A stretch of DNA of 64,000 nucleotides from positions 310,001-374,000 of the forward strand of contig VJWN01000006.1 of the NCBI GenBank assembly GCA_007644065.1, given 5' to 3'. This DNA is from Margaritispora aquatica. Its lineage: Eukaryota > Ascomycota > Leotiomycetes > Helotiales > Discinellaceae. Below are positions 8,386 to 63,486 of the stretch, one piece after another. The position numbers were made by a program, and so were the translations under genes. The stretch's first letter is position 1. Every line of letters begins with the position of its first letter. Below the pieces are notes generated by a model. The model was not told where the DNA came from. It saw nothing but the letters and a program-made list of their open reading frames with translations, and searched no databases.

Positions 8386-10785
8386 CTACATACCCCTCTC
8401 CTTCAACTTCCGATACTTTCCAGCATCTTTAACACTAGCCCTCACCTTTCCTAGTGCAACCTCCCAATCACCCGTAAGGATACTGATCTCCTCTTCTTCC
8501 CCACCAACCTCACCAGCTCTCGCTCTCGCCATTTCCCTATCAATGGCAGCAAAACCAGCCTCTTTGTGTAAGTTACCCAAGTCAGCACCACTGTACCCAG
8601 TACACCTAACATCCCTCGCAATGCGCTCTAAGCTCTCGATATCTTGTTCCGTGGCCCATGAAATAGCATTCTTGTACAATGCTCTCAGGATCTCAACTCT
8701 CTCATCTGGGGTAGGTAGATCCACAAAGACGGATGTGCCGAGACGGCCAGGACGTAACATGGCTGGATCAATCATGTCTGGTCTGTTTGTCGCCGCAACG
8801 ACATAGATTCCAGCTCTGTTGCTCAAGCCGTCAAGTTCTGTGAGAAGAGTGTTGACGACTTTGCTGCTGGCTTCTGACAAAGAGTCTTCTCTCTTCGGTA
8901 CCAACGCATCCAGTTCGTCGAAGAACAGAATACAAGGCACAGAAGAACGAGCACGTTCGAAAACTTGACGGACTGCTCTTTCGGACTCACCAACGTACTT
9001 GTTGAGGAGTTCCGGTCCTTTGATAGATATGAAATTCGCTTTAGACTCGTTTGCAACGGCCTTTGCAAGAAGTGTCTTTCCGCAACCTGGAGGTCCCCAG
9101 AGCAGTACACCAGTAGGTGCTGTGATACCAACTCTTGCAAACAGCTCTGGTCGCTTAATAGGCTCAACAATGGCCATTTCGAGCTGTTTCCGGACCTCAT
9201 GCAAGGCTCCAATATGTGCCCAAGTAGTATCTGGAATCGTAGCAAAGCCCTCTCGTTTTGCAGAGGGTTGGACTTTGGGGACTGCAGCTAAGAAATCATT
9301 GTATGTGATGGAAAAGTCGCCATCAGGTAACGGCTCGCCGGCATGACTGACCAAAGACCGTAATATCGTCAGCGCTGGTGGTGTTGTTGGTTCAACCGGA
9401 GGCTCTTCCTCGTCAATGTCCATAGCAGTGGCACTTCTTCTCTTTAATGCTTCCATCATTCGCTTCATTGCCTCCGTGCCAGCAACTGAGACAACATCAT
9501 TCAGATCTGCACCCACAAACCCAGGTGTTCTTTTCGCAAGTGTACGATAGTCAAAATCCTCAGGTAGAGTCAGCTTCATAGTCAAAGCCTTCAAAATCTT
9601 CTCTCTCGCCAGCTCGTTCGGGACACCAAGATTAATCTCCTTGTTAAAACGCCCTGCTCTCCTTAAAGCAGGATCCAGGCTATCCGGTCGATTCGTAGCT
9701 GCAATAATAATAACAGGCTTGCCACCCGTCTTTTCAAGTGCCATATCGTCCATGCAAGTGAGCATCTGAGCAACGATTCTCTTCTCCATCTCCCTCTGAG
9801 CACTCTCTCTCTTCCCCATGATAACATCGATTTCATCGATAAACACCAAACAGGGAGCCATACGCTTCGCTTCATCAAACACATCTCGAATCTTCTTCTC
9901 GGACTCTCCAGACATACCAGCTACCAGAGACGGTGCCGAGAGTGGGATAAAGGAGACCCCAATCTCGGCCGCAAAAGCATTCGCAATCATCGTCTTTCCA
10001 CAGCCAGGTGGTCCATGAAGAAGCACACCTCGAGGTGGCTGGATGCCAGTTCGGATGTACGTATCTGGATACAGCATAGGCATGGCAACGAGCTCGTTCA
10101 GCTCCTCGATAACGTTCTCCACACCTCCCAGATTCTCAAGTGAGATGTCGGTCGGTGGTGACCTATCGACATCCTTCTTAGGCTCTGCTTTCCGACGCTT
10201 GAGCTTCGGTTCTCCGTTCGCCTGTCTCTCTGCTTTTGCAGGAGACTCAATCGGTGCCTGCGCCTGAATTGGTAGCACAGGCGTAGAACTCCCATTGACA
10301 GGAGGTGTCCCAGCTCTCGAAGTCATGCCTGTAGCAGGGGCTTTAGCCCAATTCTTCAGATAGCTTCGGTTCACTATATTGTGTTCCTACTCACATTAGA
10401 TCTTATTCTCACCCAAATAATTCTTACTACAAACCTTAACCACAGGGGCTGGCTCCTCCAATCCCTCAAAATCTCCGTCTAAAGAATCGCTATCATCACG
10501 CTCTTGCTCCATAACAGCCAAGACACGGTCAATAGAATCTTCAAGCTTGTTCTTTGGCCTCCTCTTTAGGCTCGAGTTCGAAGACTTGATACTTTCATAC
10601 ACCATGGTAACAGTCAATTTTTTGCCTCCATTGGCAAGCTGTGATTGCTCTTCCGCTACTTTGCTCACAACTTGGTAAATCTACACATTGTCAGAAGTGC
10701 CCTCACATTACCACTTGAATGGTAAACTCACCTCACGGTCCAAGCTCTGCGTTAAAGACGTCCTCAATCCCCTTGAGGGCTTCAT
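8386..10785 (-). CDS. RIX7: Ribosome biogenesis AAA-ATPase RIX7 (NVL-like)
   Basis: Exons 10785-10732, 10680-10428 and 10373-8386 give 764 aa. RIX7 is a nucleolar/nuclear double-ring AAA-ATPase that strips assembly factors (Nsa1 in yeast) from pre-60S particles. Exon 1 encodes [18 protein letters not shown], and exon 2 continues [11 protein letters not shown], matching the short N-terminal helical domain of the family. A basic stretch, [11 protein letters not shown], is a likely nuclear signal. D1 has GPPGCGKT near residue 223 and FIDEID; D2 has GPPGCGKT near 525 and FFDELD, with arginine-finger regions and a GADL helix in both. The second intron (A|GTAAGAA...TATAG|TG, with TCTAATG as branch site) creates the ATG codon of MNRSYLKNW across the join. 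It shares a 366-bp divergent promoter with VPS20. Confidence 0.94.
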
Positions 10786-62730: not shown

Positions 62731-63357
62731 ATCTTTCCAATCCACCTTGGTTTAAATTGAAGGTTTTGACAAGCTGGTGGAACTTTGATGTATTAGAACC
62801 TCGCACTGGACATTTATGAGTTAAAAGACATGTTGGCGACGCATAAAGGTAGCATTCCATTCAAGTGTTCAGATCATGCGCGAGATACTAGATGACTGGA
62901 TGTTTTTCCCTTGCGTCTGAGGTGATTTCAAATTGAACTCACTAGTGATTGAACTAATAGTACATGATTCTAAGGATTTCAATTTCATTCTTGAGGAGAA
63001 ATGAAGAATGAATTCCTTTCTCTGAGATAAGTCAAATATCTGCAAACGTCCACAATCTGAGGATGAGGTAAAATAATACTAATATTACTATCTTACCTCG
63101 AGATCAGAAATTTCATCCCAAGTAGTTACCTGACTACCCGTCAAATAACAATACAGTCTAAATATCTGTAAATCTTTTAAAGTTCATCCTCCAAAGAAAA
63201 GACCCGTCGGTCCAATTGCGGTTGGGTTCTCGCTTAAAAAAAAGTTTGCACGCAGAGATTTTGCCATTCCTTTCCCCCCCACCTCAGTAACATTTCCTTT
63301 TCAACACAACATTTCGATGTAAAATAAAGCAAAAAGAATATAATCGAGTGATTATTA
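62731..63357. other. AT-rich flank upstream of the tRNA locus
   Basis: No supported gene. An aaaaa tract at 63331-63335 lies just beyond the 3' end of the minus-strand tRNA and would be an oligo-T RNA polymerase III terminator. Confidence 0.5.
63331..63335 (-). terminator. Oligo-T Pol III terminator for tRNA-Arg
   Basis: A run of five A on the plus strand (T on the minus strand) lies about 22 nt past the 3' end of the tRNA, at the usual place for a Pol III stop. Confidence 0.6.
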
Positions 63358-63486
63358 TGACCTACGCAGGGCTCGAACTAGGTTGAAAATCAGTCTTGAA
63401 TTCTAATTGAGTAGAGGAGGAGTTAGAAGCTTACCCTGCAATCTCTTGATTCGTAGTCAAGCGCCTTACCATTGGGCCAGCAGGCC
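63358..63486 (-). tRNA. tRNA-Arg(ACG) with a 57-nt insertion in the T arm
   Basis: Read on the minus strand, bases 63486-63435 and 63377-63358 form a complete 72-nt tRNA. The acceptor GGCCTGC pairs with GTAGGTC (two G-U), the D arm is GCC/GGC, the anticodon stem CTTGA/TCAAG holds loop CTACGAA with anticodon ACG (Arg), the variable loop is AGATT, the T stem is GCAGG/CCTGC, and the T loop is TTCGAGC. The A box is TGGCCCAATGG; the spliced B box would be GGTTCGAGCCC. The anticodon loop has no intron. Instead, 57 nt separate base 53 from base 54. All stems are intact, so it is either a functional gene with an unusual intron or a tRNA gene broken by insertion. CCA is not encoded, as normal for eukaryotes. 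Confidence 0.85.
63378..63434 (-). other. GT...AG intervening sequence in the tRNA T arm
   Basis: The 57-nt insert starts GTAAGC and ends AACCTAG, with a CTGAT element 16 nt before the end. It has the size and ends of a fungal spliceosomal intron. Its exact removal restores a perfect T stem-loop; a one-base shift (GGTAAG...CCTA) is equivalent because of the flanking G. Confidence 0.75.

Follow-up and report, generated by a model that had tools for sequence, protein, structure and literature searches.

In nuclear tRNA genes, introns are taught as a single class, for which a protein endonuclease does the cutting and a ligase the joining. A tRNA-Arg(ACG) gene of Margaritispora aquatica, located near one end of the 64,000-nt window analyzed here (the whole stretch of DNA, belonging to contig C46), raises the question of whether this class is the only one, since its T arm is interrupted between tRNA positions 53 and 54 by a short GT...AG sequence. 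What kind of insert this is, how it could be removed, and whether the gene that carries it can work are the points addressed below.

The insert of the window gene runs from 63434 to 63378 (GTAAGC...CCTAG) between G53 and U54, and has the sequence GTAAGCTTC...GACTGATTTTCAACCTAG. The exon/insert junction is ambiguous by one base, which can be read either as G53 or as the last G of the insert. Excision of the insert in silico leaves a 72-nt cloverleaf that ARAGORN identifies as tRNA-Arg(ACG). In the raw 64-kb window, neither ARAGORN with its intron option off nor Rfam gives any match, as expected from the interruption of the gene. The first-pass annotation had described a 57-nt GT...AG insert at 53/54 of a tRNA-Arg(ACG), starting with GTAAGC, ending with CTAG and containing a CTGAT element. 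The insert itself is borne out, ARAGORN without the intron option calling the gene only after its removal, and the three sequence elements are all confirmed on the minus strand (Table 1).

Table 1. Features of the interrupted tRNA-Arg(ACG) gene in the window, and the two intron-containing U6 genes of the same genome.
Feature	Position	Strand	Details
Interrupted tRNA-Arg(ACG) gene	63358..63486	minus	129 nt; 72 nt without insert; ARAGORN
5' exon, running from the acceptor strand into the 5' strand of the T stem (through tRNA position 53)	63435..63486	minus	52 nt
Insert at 53/54, spliceosomal-intron type	63378..63434	minus	57 nt; 5' splice site GTAAGC, 3' splice site CTAG
Branch-site-like CTGAT	63389..63393	minus	branch A 12 nt before insert end
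3' exon (positions 54-73), from the T loop through the 3' strands of T stem and acceptor stem to discriminator A	63358..63377	minus	20 nt
Box B of unspliced gene, AGTTCGAGCCC	63369..63379	minus	its first AG doubles as 3' splice-site AG of the intron
Intact box A at positions 8-18, TGGCCCAATGG	63469..63479	minus	identified from sequence
T-run, candidate Pol III terminator, TTTTTGCTTTATTTT	63331..63335	minus	by eye
U6 gene L090	C48:1672708-1672815		TTTGGTC^GTAAGT...GCTGACATGTCATAG^AATTTG; 53-nt intron
U6 gene L091	C23:2147951-2148056		CAATTTG^GTAAGT...GCTAACGTGAGTGTTAG^AAACG; 50-nt intron

The search for further copies covered one genome, the 42.36-Mb assembly in 49 contigs to which the window belongs. 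Arg copies were located by querying the assembly at the DNA level with the gene of the window, a search that made no demand on splice signals and that a strongly diverged intact copy could escape. Five Arg(ACG) loci were found, on contigs C46, C1, C14, C9 and C47, and each of them is interrupted at 53/54. No uninterrupted tRNA-Arg(ACG) was found in the assembly by the DNA search or by exact matching of the anticodon arm. The anticodon-arm string GACTACGAATC has 14 exact matches in the genome, and the five Arg genes are the only tRNA genes among them; exact-pattern scans for this arm in genome-contig and viral-contig collections gave no match. ARAGORN calls Arg(ACG) in all five copies once the insert is removed. 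The first-pass annotation had named, as evidence that would speak against its reading, several uninterrupted Arg(ACG) copies elsewhere with this copy absent or decayed in relatives; in the one genome searched, every copy found is interrupted and the exons are nearly the same throughout.

Over the 72 nt of the exons, four of the five copies are identical, and the C14 copy differs by two bases, one in the 5' exon (52 nt in every copy) and one in the 3' exon. The inserts measure 57, 61, 54, 55 and 54 nt. Comparison of their interiors in all 10 pairs gives shuffle z values from -0.9 to 3.9, with seven pairs below 2 and three at 2.8-3.9. The three higher values all fall among the C46, C1 and C14 inserts and point to shared descent of at least these three sequences, so that the five Arg inserts do not count as independent trials. 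At the sequence level, the combination of near-constant exons and diverged inserts is the pattern of working genes with removable introns. The starts of all five Arg inserts have GTAAGCTT in common (63434-63427 in the window), which extends three bases past GTAAG, CTT included, and the rest is mostly diverged.

The same site is also occupied in a second tRNA family. The pattern GTAAGN{30,60}YAGTTCGANYCC occurs at 10 places in the genome (7 in the mirrored control), corresponding to the five Arg genes, two Lys(CTT) genes on C24 and C49, and three places judged by eye not to be tRNAs. Searching with an uninterrupted Lys gene recovered six genes for tRNA-Lys(CTT). In four of them the T arm, GTGGGTTCGAGCCCCAC, is intact, and the other two are interrupted; occupied and unoccupied 53/54 sites thus coexist in one genome. 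Each of the two interrupted Lys genes has a 54-nt insert between GTGGG and TTCGA. Both also have an intron in the anticodon region, recognized by the intron option of ARAGORN in the C24 gene and by comparison of copies in the C49 gene, where ARAGORN leaves it unmarked. With the 53/54 insert removed and the intron option on, ARAGORN calls Lys in both genes; with the option off and the anticodon-region intron still present, it calls the C24 gene His(ATG). Neither Lys insert has another match in the genome at E values up to 1, which leaves a burst of one mobile intron unsupported.

A wider search, with a GTRNG pattern, returned 20 rows (16 in the mirrored control): four Arg genes, the two Lys genes, and 14 rows at 12 other places that are not tRNAs by eye. 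The C14 Arg copy escaped this search because it has CTAAA in place of CTRAY. Another wide GTRNG pattern gave 18 rows (20 in the mirrored control), and in the 13 that were inspected in context no tRNA was seen by eye, the rows outside this inspection being C1:88478, C3:372452, C3:372465, C6:984272 and C45:1650306. These pattern searches are bound to given splice signals, T loops and position, and tRNAs with others may escape them. Judged by its sequence context, the 53/54 insert of the window gene exceeds a chance occurrence, the same site being filled in all five Arg(ACG) genes found and in two Lys(CTT) genes.

All seven inserts (five Arg and two Lys, 54-61 nt) start with GTAAG and end with YAG, the Lys pair having come from the first pattern above, which itself requires GTAAG and YAG. 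A branch-type CTRAY lies near the end of six inserts, where shuffling would lead one to expect it in 8-12% of cases per insert, and the seventh, from the C14 copy, has CTAAA, which makes a weaker branch site. The distance from the branch A to the end of the insert is 12, 12, 12, 12, 11, 12 and 12 nt, that is, 12 nt in six inserts and 11 nt in one. The exon bases preceding the 5' splice site of the inserts are AGG or GGG and not MAG, the usual exon end at this position.

For comparison, introns of host protein genes were collected by spliced alignment demanding GT and AG, and 11 were kept from four genes (four from actin, five from two ARPs and two from RIX7), the poor alignments of L125 (three introns) and L127 (two introns) being left out. 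These 11 introns are 47-140 nt long and carry GTRNG in 10 cases, YAG in all 11 and CTRAY in eight, with three lacking it; their branch-like A lies 9-15 nt from the end, most commonly at 12. Actin intron 1 opens with GTAAGCTC, as does the C49 Lys insert. The anticodon-region introns of the host served as a negative control, drawn from 61 tRNA-family matches (21 on contig C38 and 40 elsewhere) obtained by scoring 62 of 1722 candidates. In ARAGORN's reading, 27 of the 40 tRNA genes outside C38 have such an intron, and none of the 27 is of the form GTRNG...YAG, even when shifted by 1-3 nt, a tolerance adopted because some ARAGORN anticodons (SeC, stop) are clearly wrong. In their sequence, the insert signals match those of the pre-mRNA introns of the host and differ from what its other tRNA introns carry. 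Two other approaches to the host introns were uninformative, a coding-bridge scan for their consensus giving no splice-site signal and a signal scan of 158,910 bases giving 240 matches against 279 in the mirrored control. A self-splicing element was also considered and rejected, the inserts being 54-61 nt long and weakly folded.

An intron in the T arm falls within the internal promoter, and the first-pass annotation had concluded that the insert breaks box B. This turns out not to be so. The box B consensus begins with R52-G53, and A52-G53 is rebuilt by the AG that closes the insert; the resulting AGTTCGAGCCC contains the ten-mer AGTTCGAGCC. The unspliced box B reads [T/C]AGTTCGA[G/T]CCC in all seven interrupted genes, and the ten-mer is present in six of them, as it is in the intact elongator Met gene L056. 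Box A and box B are 100 bp apart in the window gene and 97-123 bp apart in the seven interrupted genes, within the range of 43-125 bp found among the other tRNA genes (measurable in 32 of 40). Each of the five Arg genes is followed, at up to about 30 nt and as read by eye, by T-runs of 5-9 that resemble those of other tRNA genes, and no run longer than four T occurs inside any of the seven interrupted genes. The Arg(ACG) genes therefore bear the marks of Pol III tRNA genes, namely a cloverleaf after insert removal, boxes A and B and a T-run, and are predicted to be expressed. Position 53/54 can therefore hold an AG-ending intron without spoiling box B, and such a renewal of box B may explain why this position was occupied in two tRNA families. 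Behind many of the 40 other tRNA genes, a T-run is followed by GCN or a similar triplet and by a second T-run (e.g. TTTTTTTGCATTTTT), an arrangement that may represent a double Pol III terminator.

Three options had been left by the first-pass annotation for the insert: a protein-type intron removed by the spliceosome, recognition of a new cleavage site by the tRNA splicing endonuclease, or a dead copy. The first is strongly supported by the sequence, and we consider it very probable that the 53/54 inserts are major-class spliceosomal introns residing in Pol III tRNA genes and removed by the spliceosome. The second would call for a bulge-helix-bulge, whose geometry consists of a four-pair central helix between two bulges. 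The folding test that had been suggested for the junctions was run, and none forms: the central helix reaches at most two of four pairs in each of the seven genes at shifts of -1, 0 and +1, and the outer and inner helices 0-3 of four. The inserts also fold no better than their own shuffles, with z from -0.80 to 1.48 across the seven and none notably better. Moreover, cleavage by the endonuclease would leave GTAAG, YAG and the fixed branch spacing unexplained, the anticodon-region introns of this host lacking the GTRNG...YAG form in every case. An ectopic intron cut at 53/54 by this enzyme is thus very unlikely here, even though the endonuclease should be active in a host where anticodon-region introns are so frequent, and even though a 53/54 intron with hBHBh' motifs is described for tRNA-Ile(UAU) of the red alga Cyanidioschyzon merolae (PMC9602550).

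It could also be that the interrupted genes are dead or unused, and that CGU, CGC and CGA are read by another tRNA or by an intact copy absent from the assembly. An assembly in 49 contigs could indeed miss a gene, and the tRNA listing is partial, as given by the fraction of candidates scored. Yet the five exon sets are near identical, no intact ACG gene was found, and most insert pairs stay below a z of 2; such preservation of exons and splice signals alone is not expected of dead copies. The T-runs behind all five Arg genes and the shortness of those inside the interrupted genes likewise argue against disuse, which we regard as highly improbable. A further reading comes from ARAGORN itself, whose intron option gives the window gene a normal anticodon-region intron of 39 nt near 37/38, together with an odd long variable region. 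It appears in only one of the five Arg copies and in neither Lys pre-gene, and the 39-nt intron would delete TCAAG, the perfect partner of CTTGA, as well as the T stem GCAGG/CCTGC. Because the strand that pairs with CTTGA would be lost, we treat this reading as spurious, and its probability as close to nil. The inserts lie at 53/54 and so do not occupy the position one nucleotide 3' of the anticodon, the canonical 37/38.

Under the spliceosomal reading, Pol III would transcribe the gene by way of box A, which is intact, and of a box B whose A52-G53 comes from the intron. U1 would then bind GTAAG and U2 would bind CTRA(Y/A), with the exons ligated at YAG|UUCGA, and removal of the intron by the spliceosome would restore the T loop. 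The predicted spliced product of the Arg genes is ...GCAGG joined directly to TTCGAGCCC without the insert. Processing of the two Lys precursors would be shared, with the 53/54 intron falling to the spliceosome and the anticodon-region intron to the tRNA splicing endonuclease and ligase. The spliceosomal identity of the inserts rests on their sequence, from which we infer transcription, spliceosomal excision and the order of these steps.

Splicing of Pol III transcripts seems to take place in this host, as both U6 genes found carry introns of the mRNA type (GTAAGT...CTRAC...TAG), located at different sites (Table 1). In the search for U6, 47 of 2801 candidates were scored, and the introns were read by eye, guided by the 5' end of U6. 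The two U6 introns have CGACGCTRAC in common at the branch site. As for the demand placed on the interrupted genes, eukaryotic CGT and CGC codons are read by an I34-containing tRNA-Arg(ACG). CGT accounts for 13 of the 19 Arg codons of actin and CGC for two, compared with 9 and 1 of 48 in the RIX7 ORF. Given the share of CGT in actin, demand for the ACG tRNA should be high, and no source of it other than the five split genes was found. On balance we lean toward a scenario in which the spliceosome is an obligatory tRNA-processing enzyme in this lineage, with all tRNA-Arg(ICG) depending on it, some Lys precursors requiring two splicing systems, and 53/54 entered more than once because the AG end rebuilds box B.

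Several known systems share some of these properties. Canonical eukaryotic 37/38 introns also reside in nuclear tRNA genes, and two Lys genes here hold both kinds, but the 53/54 inserts differ from them in position, splice signals and fixed branch spacing. The C. merolae tRNA-Ile(UAU) intron has the same insertion point in the T arm of a nuclear tRNA gene; it possesses a bulge-helix-bulge (PMC9602550), whereas the present inserts lack one and carry spliceosomal signals. The fungal U6 introns, as presented in a 2017 paper, are short GT-AG introns in a Pol III small-RNA gene that use the pre-mRNA splicing machinery (PMC5832005). Here the interrupted RNA is a tRNA, whose promoter boxes are internal, whose fold is strict and which has a splicing pathway of its own, and the intron lies inside box B and restores it. 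The same paper describes GT-AG introns in another small structured RNA, the fungal U3 snoRNA, where in some genomes, two Leotiomycetes among them, one paralogue has the intron and another lacks it (PMC5832005); the hosts in the present case are tRNAs and not a snoRNA. According to this paper, frequent interruption by an intron is known for no small structured RNAs other than U3 and U6 (PMC5832005).

Among the papers listed in searches of the open-licence literature, none was seen to report a tRNA gene that holds a spliceosomal intron, and a subscription paper or preprint could exist. The word stem 'spliceosom' is absent from a review on tRNA introns (PMC4090602) and from the tRNAscan-SE 2.0 paper, which describes a search for noncanonical introns in archaeal tRNAs (PMC8450103). 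If the proposed reading is true, two splicing worlds would be joined, with the supply of the main CGU-reading tRNA dependent on the spliceosome and one Lys pre-tRNA passing through both splicing systems. The precedent set by U6 would also be widened to Pol III genes whose promoters are internal, and the rebuilding of box B through the 3' AG would be a simple constraint that may explain where such introns settle. Such genes can escape gene finders, as ARAGORN without the intron option finds none of the seven unspliced genes, so that genomes seemingly devoid of Arg(ACG) are worth re-examining.

Elsewhere in the window, the ORF at 8389-10386 on the minus strand encodes RIX7. Among the 120 of 7995 matches listed, its best named relatives are from Hyaloscypha variabilis (85%), Stipitochalara longipes (84%) and Coleophoma crateriformis (84%), the first two of which belong to the Leotiomycetes, order Helotiales. 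Two tRNA-like loci, L063 (C48:685604-685748) and L075 (C12:788952-789105), read GGAGA[AG]GTAGCTTAG... and have anticodon-region inserts of 72 and 81 nt according to ARAGORN. The 21 tRNA matches located on C38 include several in two equal-score sets about 33.7 kb apart, and this contig is probably mitochondrial DNA assembled with an overlap.
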